NCBI RefSeq assembly: GCF_028372415.1
Contig: NC_092872.1
Span: 517,762,224-517,826,223, forward strand
DNA length: 64,000 bases
DNA from: Notamacropus eugenii
Taxonomy: Eukaryota; Chordata; Mammalia; Diprotodontia; Macropodidae
Reading direction: 5' to 3'
In this document: positions 13,361 to 63,735 of the stretch, piece after piece
How positions within the stretch are numbered: the stretch's first letter is position 1
Layout: each line of letters opens with the position of its first letter
Notes under the pieces: generated by a model
Database searches by the model: none
The model's input: the letters and a program-made list of their open reading frames with translations, nothing else
Told to the model about the DNA's origin: nothing
Program-made: the position numbers and the translations under genes

Positions 13361-14530
13361 TAGAATTCCCTAATACTGTAAATAGGAAATTTTGGATCAT
13401 AGTTTCCTTGATTCCTGAACTCACAAAATTTTCAGTTCCTTGGCCTTGAGCCCCTAAAATAATTTCTGCTGAATCTGGGATTGTTTATAAGCAGATGGAG
13501 ATGTGCCAACCCATAATCAGAAAGTTGGTTTCTGGTCCCACAGTCCTTTCGTACTTACTGTATAAATCAGGACCTAAAACAGGGCAAACAAAGGGAACAG
13601 AAGCTTTGATGAACACAAGGAATTGTCTTTATCATCCCCCTCTCACCCACCCTCTTGCACACCTCTTGCCACCCTGGTCAGAGCTCTTTATATTCTGGAG
13701 AATGATGAGGTGTTGATAACATCAACTGGTTTGTGGGCTCTGGGTCAGGAATGTGGGAACATTTCCCTTCAAACAATGTAACCACTGGTCTTTTCTGCCC
13801 ATCTCCCCCTCCTAGGGCCCCACAGCACTCCCTTTCCACCAGTGAATAGCAACTCATACAAGTATGTTCCACTGGAAGGAGCCTTAGACTGTAGAATGTC
13901 AAAGCTACATAACATGGATATTAGTGTTGGAAGTGACTACAGGACATAGAAAATGAACAATTAGAAGTGGAAACAACTTGAAACTATAGAAAGGCTTCTC
14001 TCTGGGACTGCAATGAAATCCCTGGCCCCTGTTTAGAACCCCACAGGCCACAGGCATGTCCCTGAAACTGTGCCTCAGTTCTCTTACTGGGAAATGTATA
14101 TAAGAATGCCAGGCAGAAGGAATTGTGATGTTTCTGAGTCCCTGAGGATCCACCCTTGCAAGTATGTGTGGAATGATTGCAGGCATGTGCAAGTACCAGA
14201 TGTGTAGAGGTAGAAAACAATCTTGTTGTTCTAGGCAGATGATTTTCCAAGCTTAGAATAGGCCAGTCTGGTGGCTTCATAATATTCAGAGAAGATATGG
14301 ATATACCAGTACACATCTGGTACCTTTAGTGTGATTTAACATGGAATGAACTTCCCTCCCACCCCCTCTGCCTCACCCATCAAAAACAACACTTTCCCCC
14401 ACAAATGACTAAAAGTCTAACCACTGGTAATTCCCTCAGTTCTTTAATTAAGAACTTGTGCCCTCTTTTAAAATGAAAGTGTTTCCAGAAAAGGTAACCT
14501 TATTATGTTAATACCTTAGAATTATGTTAT
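13361..14530. other. No feature recognised
   Basis: Largest clean-looking stretch left of the SBSPON-like exon. Frames of 74-110 codons occur on the reverse strand but lack domains, signal peptides or a thrombospondin-type WSxWS pattern. Confidence 0.4.
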
Positions 14531-14884: not shown

Positions 14885-15640
14885 ATAGTCAGCATTAAAG
14901 GTAAAGAAAAGCCATCACCATTCCAGGTCCAGCCAAACCCTGATCAGGTAAAGATGAAAATTCTCACGTTGGAAAGAAACTGAAAAATAACATAGCCAAG
15001 AATGAAAGCATCTCCTCAGTGCCTCAACTTTCTGTGAGTCTGCGGAATTTTTTTAAGGGGAGGGAGGTAAAATAACCTCTTATCTTAAGGAAGTTCTACA
15101 TCTCCAAGAAGCAGAATAAGCATTCACTTAAATCATACTCCATGAATACTCATTATTAATGCAGATAATGATTATTGTTGGTTATGATAGTAATGGTTTT
15201 AATCAAGATGATACAGGGATGGTGATAGTCTGAGTCCTATTACTCTAATTCACTTAGGAAGTTATACTGTCACTGACCAGTCAGTAACTTCAGACACCAT
15301 CATAAAAGCCCTCGGAGTAAGGGGAGAGCTAGACCAGTGGTGGTGTGGGGGTCCCATCCCTTATGGCCCTCTCCTATCAGCTCCTCAAGAATTCCTTTAC
15401 AAATCCCTGAGTTTCTTTTGCCTTTCCATGCCCCTGCCTGAGGTCCCTAACTCCATGCCAGGCCCAGAGTCCCTCTTCCCCACAGTCCTAATTTCTACCC
15501 TAACCCTAATCTAACATAGTCCTATTCCTAACTAGGACCCCTCTACCCCAGGCCTGGTCCCAGCCCCCTCTTCATCCCACTGACCACTTTATAGCCTCAC
15601 CCCACCCTATGACTTTGGGGAAGTAGGTTCACTTTCTTGG
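14885..15640. other. No feature recognised (downstream intron side of the SBSPON-like exon)
   Basis: Would lie in intron 1 of the reverse-strand gene whose exon starts at 16102. C-rich from 15300 on. A forward 288-codon frame starting at 15637 is a shadow of the CpG-rich exon on the other strand. Confidence 0.4.
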
Positions 15641-15689
15641 GTCTCAGTTCCCTCATCTGCCAAATGAGTGGGGTTGAATTAGATCACCT

Positions 15690-16135
15690 GTCGATCTGGG
15701 CTCCTGCTTTCCTTCCTCTCCTCACTGCCGAGCCCCTCTTCCCACTCTCAGACCTCCTTCTCGGTGCCGGTGCCCCTATCCCAGGCTCGGTCACCCTCGT
15801 CCCGCGCCTCTCCGAGTCCCTGTGGACCGCCCACGCCCACGCTCCCTGCTCATCCTCGCCCGGCTCCCACCTGGACAGGCACTCCCATAATCCTGGCAGC
15901 AGTCCCCGGCTGCGCTGCATGCCTGGTCGCAATAACAGGGCTGGGAGCCCAGCGAGAGACCCGCCGCTGTCCAGCCCCGGGAGACGCACGTCAGGTCCCG
16001 GCCGGGACAGCAGCGACCGAGCTCCGCACAGCCCGCTTGGGTCCGTGGGATCGCTCCCAGAGCCAGAGCCCAGGCCCAGGTCAGTACCGCACCATGGGCC
16101 ATGTCCGGTGGACTCCCACGCCTGCCGAGTCCTAG
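15690..16135. promoter_or_regulatory. CpG-rich patch over the first exon
   Basis: CpG dinucleotides and G+C are clearly denser here than in the surrounding sequence ('cctcgtcccgcgcctctccg', 'ctgcgctgcat', 'ctccgcacagcccgcttggg'). It covers exon 1 and the start of intron 1 of the SBSPON-like gene, so it probably marks a promoter. No TATA box was seen upstream of the start codon. Confidence 0.65.
15871..16102 (-). CDS. SBSPON-like gene, first coding exon (signal peptide and somatomedin-B domain)
   Basis: Predicted secreted extracellular-matrix-type protein; only its first coding exon is visible. The ATG at 16102 has a fair start context (ccggacATGg) and opens a hydrophobic signal sequence ('AVLTWAWALALGAI') with a likely cut after 'RTQA' (residue 23). 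Residues 24-77 form a somatomedin-B domain with ten cysteines in the order C, CC, C, CxC, C, CC, C ('GCAELGRCCPGRDLTC', 'CYCDQAC', 'GDCCQDY'). These pieces closely resemble human SBSPON as I remember it. The exon closes after residue 77 plus one base with donor CAG/GTGGGA, so the intron is phase 1. The frame stays open upstream of the ATG, but this is the first Met followed by a signal peptide. The thrombospondin type-1 exon was not found between 1 and 15870. It could be SBSPON itself or its paralogue; its place near a ZFAS1-like locus favours the paralogue. Confidence 0.75.
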
Positions 16136-16273
16136 GGAAGGATGGGAGGGGGAAGGGAGGGGAGAGTCAGTCAGGCGGAGCCACAGGTTTCCTCCCTGGG
16201 CTGGATCCCAACTCAAACTACCCCCCACGTTACTCGCCCCTCCCCGGGTCCAGATCCATAGAGGCACCCCTGT

Positions 16274-16281
16274 ATGCAAAT
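16274..16281 (+). promoter_or_regulatory. Octamer motif upstream of the SBSPON-like start
   Basis: A perfect 'atgcaaat' octamer (POU-factor site) lies about 170 bp upstream of the start codon of the reverse-strand gene, just outside the CpG-rich patch. Function is inference only. Confidence 0.3.
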
Positions 16282-16394
16282 ACCCCCATGCTTCCCCTCA
16301 CTCTCCCTCCCCTCCACATCTTCTGCTCTCCAAAAGGAATAACCTGCAAGGAATTGGGACGGGGTGGGTGGGCACCTCGTCTGCCAGGAGCCCC

Positions 16395-25086: not shown

Positions 25087-27664
25087 GGGAGAGCAGCCCA
25101 GCATGGGCCACACAATGTAGCAGGGACAGGACCAGAGCAGGCCTCTGGGGGCAGAATCTCAGGTAGCAGCTGTGGTTCTCAGATTGCTCAACCCACAAAC
25201 GCCAAAGACAGCTTCAAATGTCAGTGAGAAAGCTCTTTCACCTGGGTGAGAAGGGAACACTGTCTGGATGTGACAACAGCAGCCACTCTATTTTTGGAGC
25301 CCTCGTCTTAATTGAGGAAATTGAGGTGCTGATCTGAGTCTCAGCCCTGAGTGGCAGCTCTGGGGTGAGAAGGATCACTGGCTGGTATGGTGGAGCTGGA
25401 GGCAGTTGTGGAGAGGGAACCCTACTCACAGATCCTGGGCAGAAGAGTGCTTGTGGTTGCTCCCAGACCAGAGTGTAGGCAAGGAGAGGAGTAAACTCCT
25501 TTCCCTTGATTGTGCTACCTTGAAGGAATGGAGAATTTACAAGTCCCTAGAGTATACCCTCCTCTTGACAAAGGACTCAAAATTCAAATAACTGGCTGGG
25601 AAAATGCCCAAAAAAGGGGGAAAAAGTAAGACTATAGAAGGCTACTTTTTTGGTGAACAGGTATTTTCTTCCATCCTTTCGGATAAGGAAGAACAATGCA
25701 TATCATCAGAGGAAGACCTAAAAGTCAAGACTTCTGCATCCAAAACTTCCAAAATAAATATGCAATGATCTCAGGCCATGGAAGAGCTCAAAAGGTAAGA
25801 GAGGTGGAGGAAAAATTGGGAAGAGAAATGAGAGAGATGCAAGAAAATCATGAAAAGTAAGTCAACAGCTTGCTAAAGGAGACCCAAAAATATGCTGAAG
25901 AAAATAACACCTTTAAAAATAGGCTAACTCAATTGGCAAAAGAGGTCCAAAAAAATCAATGAGGAGAAGAATGCTTTAAAAAGCAGAATTAGCCAAATGG
26001 AAAAGGAGGTCCAAAAGCTCACTGAAGAAAATAGTTCTTTAAAAATTAGAATGGAACAGATGGAAGCTAATGACTTTATGAGAAACCAAAAAATCACAAA
26101 ACAAAACCAAAAGAATGAAAAAATAGAAGATAATGTGAAATATCTCATTGGAAAAACAACTGACCTGGAAAATAGATTCAAGAGAAACAATTTAAAAACT
26201 ATGGGACTACCTGAAAGACATGATCAAAAAAAGAACCTAGACATCATCTTTCATTAAATTATCAAGGAAAATTGCCCTGATATTCTAGAACCAGAGGGCA
26301 AAATAAATATTGAAAGAATCCACAGATCACCTCCTGAAAAAGACCCAAAAAGAAAAACTCCTAGGAATATTGTAGCCAAATTCCAGAGTTGCCAAGTCAA
26401 GGAGAAAATATTGCAAGCAGTTAGAAAGAAAGAATTCGAGTATTGTGGCAATACAATCAGGATAACACAAGACCTAGCAGTTTCTACATTAAGGTATCAA
26501 AGGAAGTCAAAGGAACTAGGATTAAAACTAAGAATCACCTACCCAGCAAAACTGAGCATAATATTTCAGAGGAAAAAATGGTCATTCAATGAAATAGAGG
26601 ACTTTCAAGCATTCTTGATGAAAAGACCAGAGCTGAATAGAAAATTTGACTTTCAAACATGAGTCAAGAGAAGCATGATAAGGTAAATAGTAAAGAGAAA
26701 TCATAAGGGACTTATTAAAGTTGAACTATTTACATTTCTACATGGAAAGATAATATTTGTAACTCTTGTAACTTCCCTCAGTATTTGGGTAGCTGGAGGA
26801 ATTATACACATATATATAGGCAAAGAGCACAAGGTGAGTTGAATAGGAAGGGATGATATCTAAAAAAATAAAATTAAGGGATAAGAGAGGAATATATTGG
26901 GAGGAGAAAGGGAGAAATGGAATGGAGCAAATTATCTCTCATAAAAGAGACAAGAAAAAGTTTTTTCAATGGAAGGGAAAAGGGGGGAGGTGACAGGGAA
27001 AAAGCAAATCTTACTCTCATCACATTTGGCTTAAGGAGAGAATAACATGCACAGTCAATTTGGTATGAAAATCTATCTTACATTACAGGAAAGTAGGGGA
27101 GAAGGGAATAAGTGGAATGGGGGGATGATAGAAGGGAGGAAAAATGGGAGGAGGGAGTAATTAGAAGTACACACTTTTGGGGAGGAACAAGGTCAAAAGA
27201 GAGAATAAAATAAATGGGGGGCAGGACAGAATGGAGGGAAATATAGTTAGTCTTACACAATATGACTATTATGGAAGTCTTTTGCAAAACTACACATATA
27301 TAGCCTATTTTGAATTGCTTGCCTTCTCAGTGGGGTTAGGTGGGGAGGGAGGAAGGGAGAGAAGTTGGAACTGAAAGTTTTAGGAACAAATATTGAGAAT
27401 TGTTTTTGCATGCAACTGGAAAATAAGGAGTATAGAAATCTATCTTGCTCTACAAGAAAAGAGAGAAGATGGGGATCAGGGAAGGGAGGGATGTAAGAAG
27501 GGAGGGCAGATTGGGGAAAGGGGTAATCAGAATGCATGACATTTTGGGGTGGGGGAGGGGAGAGATGGGGAGAAAATTTGAAACTCAAAATTTTGTGTAA
27601 ATGAATATTGAAAACTAAAAATAAAAAAACATTAAAAAATAAATAACTAAATAAAATGCTAAGA
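25087..27664 (+). mobile_element. Full-length HAL1 (half-L1): 5' UTR, ORF1, no ORF2, doubled 3' tail
   Basis: A non-autonomous L1 relative. Order seen: G/C-richer 5' UTR (25087-25603), ORF1 (25604-26662), purine-rich spacer A (26680-27240), L1-type tail 1 (27241-27427, 'cacaatatgac', 'ggaactgaaagttttagg'), purine-rich spacer B (27428-27560, a diverged copy of the end of spacer A starting 'tatagaaatctatctt'), and tail 2 (27561-27640, 'gaaactcaaaattttgtg', 'attgaaaactaaaaataaa'). No endonuclease or reverse transcriptase sequence lies between spacer and tail. A perfect 12-bp target-site duplication 'aagaaaatcatt' brackets it (25075-25086 and 27665-27676), so it inserted as one unit into an older L1 ORF1 with its 5' end intact. 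It needed another L1's ORF2 protein to move. Confidence 0.85.
25604..26662 (+). pseudogene. HAL1 ORF1 (L1 ORF1p-like RNA-binding protein), interrupted
   Basis: L1 ORF1 proteins form trimers through a coiled coil and bind element RNA. The start 'MPKKGGKSK' at 25604 is basic, as in other L1 ORF1s. A heptad-rich coiled coil follows (25997-26180: 'MEKEVQKLTEENSSLKIRM', 'QNQKNEKIEDN'). Then come the RRM-like part ('NLKTMGLPERHDQKKNLD') and the C-terminal domain (26411-26662: 'RKKEFEYCGNTIRITQDL', 'LRITYPAKLSIIF'), ending at TGA 26660-26662. Start and end are in one frame with about 352 codons, but at least two stops interrupt it (after codon 54, and just after 26254), so no full protein can be made. 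Confidence 0.8.
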
Positions 27665-47277: not shown

Positions 47278-48585
47278 GCCTAGAGACGGAGGGTCTTGTT
47301 CCTGGAATAGCCAGATGACCAGTGTCTATCACTGGATTGAAGAGTACGTGTCTGAGAGTGAAGACTGGAAATGCAGGAGGGGGCTAGGTTATGAAGGTCT
47401 CTGAATGCCAAACAGAGCATTTTGTATTTGATCCTGGAGGCAATAGGGAGGCACTGGAGTTTATTGAACAGGTGGGTAATAAGGTCAGACCTGTGCTTTA
47501 GGAAAATCACTTTAGTGGTTGAATGGAGGATGGATTAGAATGGGGAGAGACTTAAGGCAGGCAGATCAATCAGAAGGCTATTTTAATAATCCAGGTATGA
47601 GGTGACCAGGGCCTACCCTAGAGTCATGGCAGTGTCCTAGAAGAGAAGGGAGCATGTTTGAGAGATGATGCAAAGGTAAAATTGACAGGCCTTGAGGGGT
47701 GAACTTAGACGTGGGGGGTGGGGAGTGGTAAGAGATCATAAGGAATCCAAGATGATTCCTAGGCTGTGAGCCTAAGGGCCTGGGACGTTGGTGTTGCCTT
47801 CTACAGTAATACAGAAGGATGGGGGTAAGGTTCAGGGGAAAAGATAAGGAGTTTTATTTTGGACATATTGAGTTTAAGACATCTGAAAGGCAGCTGGAGA
47901 TATGAGATTGGAGGTCAGCAGAGAGGTTGCCCCAGGATAAGTAGATTTGAAAATCCTCAGCATAGAGATGATAACCAAATCCATGGGGACTGAGGGTTTC
48001 CCTAAGAGAAGTAGTAGAGATAGAGAAGAGAAAAGGCCCCAGGACAAAGCCTTGAAGGACACCATTGTTATAGGGCATGATCTTGAAGAGGATCCAGCAG
48101 AGGAAGAAGGGAAGGAGCAAGCAGATAGGTAGGAAGAGAACTAGGAAAGAGTAGTATCCCAAAAACCTAGAAAAGTAGAGAAGAGAATATCAAGTGCTAT
48201 AGCTAGGACAGAAAGAATGAGGATTGAGAAAAGGCCATTGGTTCTGGCATCTAAGAGATCAAGAATATCTTTGGAGAAAGCCATTTCAATGGAATGATAA
48301 CAAGCTGGATTGTAAAGGGTTAAGAAAAGAGTGAGAGGAAAGAAAGTGGAGGCACCTTATTGTAGTTAGCCTTTCAAGGAGTCTGGCTGCAAAGGGCAAA
48401 AGAGATATAGAATGATGGTTAGCAGGGATGGAATGATCAAGAGAGGGTTTTTTTTCAGGATGAGGGAGACATAGGCAGCAGGAAATGAGTCAGTATTATA
48501 GGGAGAGATTGAAAATGAGTGAAAGAGTAGAAATAATGGGTCAGTCTGTTGGAAGAGTTTGAATGGAATGAGATCACTTGAACAA
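47278..48585 (-). mobile_element. L2-clade LINE, reverse transcriptase to C-terminus, reverse
   Basis: About 1.3 kb. The reverse strand shows, in order, the polymerase motif B '[14 protein letters not shown]', the catalytic box '[14 protein letters not shown]' (YADD changed to YAED) within 47854-48162, and the C-terminal 'LQCLPIASRIKYKMLCLAF' and 'LHNLAP' (47280-47510). This order is that of L2/CR1 LINEs. Frame shifts separate the pieces. Confidence 0.85.
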
Positions 48586-62570: not shown

Positions 62571-62815
62571 CTATGAAAGAAAAAACAGAAGCAATCCTTT
62601 ATTAAAAGTGCTTCATCATACAAACAATTTTACCTTTCTTTGGTTACATGCTCACTTTTATTATGCTGTCTTATTAATGTAAAGCTCTTGTTAATGTAAA
62701 GTGGGCTCTTGTATGAGGGCTATCAATCCTACACACTTTACACATAAATATACTGGGGGAAGAGGTCAATAGTGATTAGATAACCAGAATCTATATAACC
62801 AACTCCAGGATCTAA

Positions 62816-62901
62816 TGGAAATCAGACAAGTTTTGGCTTAAAATGTTCCTGATCAGCATTGTCGATCAGTTGGGGAAAAAAGTTTTAGTCATCATGTACC
62901 A
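62816..62901 (-). ncRNA. Box C/D snoRNA, SNORD12 family, copy 1 (3'-most)
   Basis: Guides 2'-O-methylation of 28S rRNA if the family assignment holds. Read on the reverse strand: C box ATGATGA, guide CTTTTTTCCCC shared by all three copies, a canonical D' box CTGA, a C' box ATGCTGA, and D box CTGA near the 3' end. The terminal stem is weak (TGG with CCA plus one inner pair). The guide can pair with the conserved 28S tract GGGGAAAGAAG with one G-U pair, and the fifth base upstream of D' falls on a G. The second half (before box D) differs from copies 2 and 3, so this copy is the most diverged. It sits 246 bp upstream of the last-exon acceptor. Confidence 0.75.
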
Positions 62902-62953
62902 CAGACCTGGAGATTTTAACAAAGAATCTTGAAATGTGCAAAGGTAGTCATAC

Positions 62954-63023: not shown

Positions 63024-63239
63024 CTGCAGCAATAACATGAATTTCAGGAAATTCACCTACCTTTAATAAAAGCTGAGTACTTATGAACACCATTCTTCTG
63101 GTCTGTATGGTATTAGACTGACATCACTCCAACCCTAAGCTTCTGCTCATTTTAAGAGCTAGCCTATAAAATATATATCCCAAAGAAAGAGTGAGAATGC
63201 CATTTAACAAACTAAAAGATAAAACTATCTTGAAGCTGC

Positions 63240-63322
63240 TGGTGTGTCAGAAAAAACTGGCAAAAATAGTTAGGATCAACATGGTCGATCTGATGGGGAA
63301 AAAAGTTCAATCATGCACACCA
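63240..63322 (-). ncRNA. Box C/D snoRNA, SNORD12 family, copy 2
   Basis: Reverse strand: seven-pair terminal stem TGGTGTG with CACACCA, C box ATGATTG (one change from RUGAUGA), guide CTTTTTTCCCC, D'-like CAGA, C' box ATGTTGA and D box CTGA ('TTTTTTCTGAC'). The stretch before box D, 'TTTTTGCCAGTTTTTT', is nearly the same as in copy 3, so these two are the closest pair. The weakened C box could lower its accumulation. Confidence 0.75.
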
Positions 63323-63505
63323 TTCTTAAAACCTTTAGCTTATAGCAAATACTTATTCCATGATTGTTGATTATCTTGGGAATCTTAGCAAGATGACTTT
63401 TTAAAGTTGCCTATACCTCTGGTACACTCCTTTCCTGACAGCCCAATGTCTAACTTTAATGAGGCAACACCAATAAACTATTATAGATGAGTAAGTGTAA
63501 CTTAC

Positions 63506-63645: not shown

Positions 63646-63735
63646 GCTGGTATATCAGAAAAAACTGGCAAGGAATAGTAGGATCAACATAGTCGATCTG
63701 ATGGGGAAAAAAGTTTAGTCATCATATATACCAGC
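63646..63735 (-). ncRNA. Box C/D snoRNA, SNORD12 family, copy 3 (5'-most)
   Basis: The best-formed of the three. Reverse strand: ten-pair terminal stem GCTGGTATAT with ATATACCAGC, C box ATGATGA, guide CTTTTTTCCCC followed by CAT and a D'-like CAGA, C' box ATGTTGA, and D box CTGA directly before the closing stem. Length 90 nt is normal for the class. The guide matches the 28S tract GGGGAAAGAAG as I remember it, and the family is reported to guide human 28S G3878. Assignment to SNORD12C versus 12B or 12 by order is inference. Confidence 0.85.

Follow-up and report, generated by a model that had tools for sequence, protein, structure and literature searches.

A second SBSPON-family gene near ZFAS1 in Notamacropus eugenii, with a probable origin in the early-vertebrate genome duplications

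The 64,000-nucleotide stretch of Notamacropus eugenii DNA analysed here (the window) contains what is very probably coding exon 1, near ZFAS1, of the marsupial gene SBSPON-like, which would be the duplicate of SBSPON (RPE-spondin) from the genome duplications of early vertebrates. We put the probability of this reading at about 0.88. Duplication of the early-vertebrate genome would have given rise to both SBSPON and SBSPON-like, and the SBSPON-like product would be secreted and rich in disulfides, some 266 residues long, with a somatomedin-B (SMB) domain, one thrombospondin type-1 (TSP1) repeat and an SBSPON_C domain. The gene is not new, since databases already contain SBSPON-like from several marsupials and from many birds, reptiles and placentals, mostly under an automatic label.

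The first coding exon and its surroundings

Read on the minus strand from 16102 to 15871, the exon translates into 77 residues that end in GSACP, with one spare base. The start codon is an ATG in a favourable context, with G at both -3 and +4, and the reading frame, although open from 16297, has no methionine before it. A hydrophobic leader of 23 residues, called as a signal peptide by eye, precedes a cysteine-rich domain of 54 residues; this is the ten-cysteine SMB domain behind a signal-peptide-like leader by which the SBSPON family is recognised. The GTGGGA that abuts the coding sequence, together with the spare base, indicates that the exon ends in phase 1 and has an intact splice donor (Table 1). 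Pfam detects Somatomedin_B on residues 53-76 (8.8e-7; 29.6 bits against a cut-off of 23.1), and human SBSPON, as an approximate query sequence, aligns to the exon with 54% identity over 70 residues (tblastn, E 6e-20), the runner-up among the matches listed for this query having an E of 0.52. A regular expression for the ten cysteines, modelled on exon 1 itself, finds the exon as its sole match across the six frames of the window. Across 35 rows, nine of these cysteines are invariant, and the tenth is present in at least 90% of them.

Table 1. Coordinates of the features discussed in the text, in positions of the 64,000-nucleotide window
Feature	Position	Strand	Remarks
Coding exon 1 of SBSPON-like	15871..16102	minus	leader, residues 1-23; ten-cysteine somatomedin-B domain, residues 24-77; phase-1 end
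Splice donor GTGGGA	15865..15870	minus	abuts CCAG of exon 1
CpG-rich patch	15601..16300	.	GC 0.64-0.70, CpG o/e 0.56-0.69; likely promoter region
Intron-1 stretch matching an optional exon predicted for isoform X2 of Antechinus SBSPON-like	14091..14249	minus	64%, with a five-residue gap
SNORD12-family snoRNA (ZFAS1 marker)	62811..62905	minus	Rfam, 53.7 bits
SNORD12-family snoRNA (ZFAS1 marker)	63238..63324	minus	Rfam, 80.4 bits
SNORD12-family snoRNA (ZFAS1 marker)	63646..63735	minus	Rfam, 100.9 bits

The exon lies within the only part of the window that exceeds both of our CpG thresholds (GC > 0.55 and CpG o/e > 0.5; four 400-base windows), the means of the window being 0.40 for GC and 0.11 for CpG o/e, and this patch likely corresponds to a promoter. 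Thus a leader plus ten-cysteine SMB exon with a good donor in a CpG-rich patch, as the original prediction described it, is confirmed, and the three-snoRNA, ZFAS1-like locus that it had placed about 46 kb away is also borne out. At the gathering threshold, Rfam yields exactly three matches in the window, all of them to the SNORD12 family and on the minus strand. ZFAS1 is known as the host of SNORD12, SNORD12B and SNORD12C, and there are papers that mention ZFAS1 and SNORD12 together; the trio thus marks ZFAS1, which places it on one strand with exon 1 at a distance of 46.7 kb. By human gene order, the locus would lie in the KCNB1-ZFAS1 interval, and KCNB1 would be the other neighbour of the exon. 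Neither KCNB1 nor ZNFX1, nor anything resembling KCNB2, TERF1 or RPL7, appears in a Pfam scan of 20 of the 27 open reading frames of at least 110 residues in the window, the remaining seven overlapping scanned frames or exon 1.

The same 20 frames give no sign of other host genes, a statement that applies to long frames, as ordinary short exons would escape it. Their Pfam matches are limited to an L1 ORF1 domain and two hits below threshold, one to reverse transcriptase and one of low complexity. The L1 ORF1-like frame (26258-26662; Transposase_22, 4.8e-9), which resembles marsupial L1, lies beside a 63-base tandem repeat at 25930-26052 on the plus strand, and the weak reverse transcriptase match lies at 47854-48189 on the minus strand.

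Exons 2 onwards of SBSPON-like are not found in the window by tblastn of nine relatives at E values up to 1. The lack of a later exon in the 15.87 kb to the left of exon 1 implies either that intron 1 is longer than this or that the gene is broken in Notamacropus eugenii. The second alternative, in which SBSPON-like is decaying in this species and exon 1 alone is left, also draws on the damaged appearance of some placental entries (see below); we consider it unlikely, since the start, the ten cysteines, the donor and the CpG patch of exon 1 are all undamaged, the domain is more conserved than the leader, and close relatives such as the Dromiciops protein P0003 carry the full exon set. The gene is probably intact, with a first intron longer than 15.87 kb. 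The only other strong match of the nine relatives is the stretch that aligns with an optional Antechinus exon (Table 1). It is probably not coding here because a stop lies just upstream in that frame, and the alignment itself supports the orthology of intron 1.

Marsupial relatives and the plan of the full gene

A search with exon 1 returns nine proteins: seven marsupial SBSPON-like entries, together with an SBSPON-like from a turtle and an SBSPON from an alligator. The seven marsupial entries are 74-87% identical to the exon, with Dromiciops P0003 and P0002, which we read as koala, at 86-87%; these two database SBSPON-like proteins are direct orthologues of the window exon and differ from it in nothing essential. 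Differences are denser in the leader than in the domain. Compared with koala, the exon differs at 4 of 54 positions in residues 24-77 and at 7 of 23 in the leader; the corresponding values are 3 of 54 and 7 of 23 for Dromiciops, and 7 of 54 and 8 of 23 for each of two dasyurids.

In Dromiciops P0003, exon 1 continues into a TSP1 domain (PF19028) and an SBSPON_C domain (PF25031), while the SMB domain scores 23.0, just below the Pfam cut-off of 23.1. PF19028 is found in the marsupial orthologues P0003 and P0004, and PF25031 in P0003 and P0002, falling below the cut-off in P0004. Some entries depart from this plan: in P0002 (isoform X2) and Monodelphis P0008, exon 1 is joined straight to the C-terminal part without the TSP1 exon, and in Gracilinanus P0006 the frame runs on beyond the exon-1 donor. 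The residue that follows the final CP of exon 1 is alanine, valine or glycine in all seven marsupial entries, as expected because a phase-1 junction begins with G.

By analogy of domain plan with SBSPON, SBSPON-like would most likely serve as a small secreted adaptor of the matrix or the cell surface. AlphaFold yields a weak model (mean pLDDT 65, pTM 0.46) that is confident mainly in the TSP1 part; its best matches in the PDB contain TSP1 repeats, at E values no better than 2e-3. Searching the PDB by sequence gives only a spurious match (0.046) and the SMB domain of ENPP1 (0.7). In a bladder-cancer study (PMC12320502), SBSPON is reported to bind HSPA5 via its TSP1 domain and to be glycosylated at Asn227. 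An NQT sequon occurs at this site in five of five mammalian SBSPON rows, in none of seven non-mammalian SBSPON rows and in none of 13 SBSPON-like rows, a distribution that makes the sequon a feature of mammalian SBSPON, not one common to both genes.

Separation from SBSPON and age of the split

Marsupial members of both kinds share the leader, the ten-cysteine SMB domain, one spondin-type TSP1 repeat and SBSPON_C, yet SBSPON and SBSPON-like form distinct clades, and the two Dromiciops proteins are only 51% identical. The trees draw on the exon-1 search and on a search with P0003 that gave 197 proteins at 1e-10, the rows being picked for length and wide sampling and, for the P0003 search, from the best 120 of these 197. 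A quick tree comprised 70 rows (69 relatives and the window exon), and a careful tree 54 rows (53 relatives, drawn also from the galago query described below, and the window exon); the latter is unrooted, its rows including neither an invertebrate nor a lamprey outgroup. In the 54-row tree, the window exon groups with four marsupial SBSPON-like rows (support 100/99), separate from an SBSPON clade of 18 rows (100/100) that contains mammalian SBSPON (including Dromiciops and Petaurus), squamates, a tinamou, Bombina, lungfish, the shark Hemiscyllium, gar, tarpon and Scleropages. The remaining 36 rows comprise, among tetrapods, marsupial and placental SBSPON-like, reptiles, birds and the window exon and, among fish, coelacanth, sturgeon, bowfin, teleosts and four cartilaginous fish.

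The degree of identity to human SBSPON, a gene of chromosome 8, and the identical ten-cysteine pattern would also suit a true SBSPON orthologue that had moved, or been misassembled, beside ZFAS1. This is extremely improbable: approximately unbiased (AU) tests of two groupings, which follow from a condition set by the original prediction, reject the exon inside the SBSPON clade (p 9e-46) and with marsupial SBSPON (p 1e-79), and Dromiciops owns both genes, with P0003 on a 701.6 Mb contig and SBSPON (P0076) on a 764.0 Mb contig. On these trees and tests, the exon is that of an SBSPON paralogue and not of SBSPON itself, in line with the original prediction of a separate paralogue. That prediction had also counted on a separate SBSPON in the same species; two genes on different contigs are seen in another marsupial, Dromiciops, where the check was made. 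Both kinds also occur together in Ailuropoda (P0119, P0123), Pogona (P0070, P0106), Nothoprocta (P0050, P0117) and Naja (P0025, P0144).

A later, lineage-specific duplication of SBSPON is the remaining alternative to a whole-genome-duplication pair, and the unrooted tree leaves some room for it. We regard it as very unlikely. The AU test rejects a tree in which the mammals of the two kinds all fall in a single clade (p 4.5e-4), as well as one in which all the tetrapods of the two kinds do so (p 2.7e-4). A recent duplication would produce either pattern; both groupings were chosen post hoc with the tree already known. If the root is set between the clades, each side includes tetrapods along with cartilaginous, ray-finned and lobe-finned fish, as expected for a genome-duplication pair. 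The comparisons support a split that would predate tetrapods and, most simply, with the root assumed between the clades, one that would predate living jawed vertebrates. Placing the root on the SBSPON branch lets the four cartilaginous fish diverge first on the SBSPON-like side (99/97), in agreement with the species tree, which suggests that one duplication before living jawed vertebrates suffices. Against this simple picture, Hemiscyllium is nested in the SBSPON clade with rows of tetrapods and lungfish, at modest support (80/72 and 83/74), and is not basal; the long tinamou row P0141 is a further weak point beside the assumed root. Of the original proposal of a genome-duplication origin, then, the age fits, the split being older than tetrapods, but the duplication itself is probable on an assumed root.

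Database names, gene neighbourhood in birds and decay in placentals

Names and clades disagree in the databases. The 'SBSPON' of chicken and alligator and several fish records of that name fall outside the SBSPON clade, whereas those of spotted gar and Bombina fall inside. The chicken protein P0018 is encoded on a contig of 14,265,659 bases, which we take to be chromosome 20, the KCNB1 chromosome, and several further bird rows are on contigs of 14-18 Mb; others, for example those of Apteryx (20.1 Mb), Falco (40.3 Mb) and Prinia (37.1 Mb), differ. As a sign of the KCNB1 chromosome, the bird contigs are suggestive only. A chicken gene called SBSPONL has its name in common with SBSPON-like, but its locus, on chromosome 15, differs from the P0018 contig, so that it is probably another gene and a name clash. 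Genome-wide association gene lists place SBSPONL at 8-9 Mb, sharing a 1-Mb window with SUSD2 and others (PMC10976558, PMC7402339). Passages of a songbird potassium-channel paper (PMC3711925) give no chromosome for KCNB1. In passages of a broiler study (PMC13371210), SBSPON is reported as down in a table and up in the discussion, and which of the two genes is meant is ambiguous. Among the matches listed in searches of open-licence PMC texts, no title or abstract opening deals with the paralogue or with the SBSPON/SBSPON-like pair.

The SBSPON-like side of the 70-row and 54-row trees includes 15 placental rows. A query with the galago protein P0069 returns 71 proteins at 1e-20, cluster representatives that name, by our own count, 28 placental species. 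Entries of at least 260 residues include those of whales, bats, badger, walrus, elephant, manatee, elephant shrews, galago and treeshrew. The named rows of these 71 matches, all but three of the total, include no human, rodent or lagomorph. Other entries are damaged to various degrees. The bonobo (Pan paniscus) entry P0137, a one-sequence cluster, is missing two of the ten SMB cysteines, has a TSP1 start that cannot be aligned as TSP1 and is devoid of the C-terminal domain; judged from the protein, it looks like a remnant. Lynx SBSPON-like has lost three SMB cysteines and is otherwise long; the entries of capuchin, marmoset, lion and sheep (P0145, P0146, P0142 and P0149) are truncated or scrambled; and those of mouse lemur, tarsier and colugo are without exon 1. 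The idea that the gene was lost on the human lineage is too narrow, given the damage in bonobo and other placentals; the absence in human seems to belong to a wider decay. We treat repeated loss in placentals as a hypothesis, because faults of annotation or assembly could explain some of the damaged entries.

Our analysis separates two genes that are partly held under one database name. Since chicken, alligator and several fish 'SBSPON' lie outside the SBSPON clade, transferring function to them by name from human SBSPON may mislead. We think it somewhat probable that SBSPON has an unnamed ohnologue from the two rounds of early-vertebrate genome duplication, which persists undamaged in sauropsids, fish, marsupials and a number of placental orders and has been eroding repeatedly in other placentals (apes, New World monkeys, cats and sheep), and that the 'SBSPON' of chicken and many fish is this other gene. 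Studies of human, and perhaps of rodents, would then see one of two ancestral extracellular proteins, and the pair may be a case in which one duplicate has decayed several times among placental mammals and the other has been retained.
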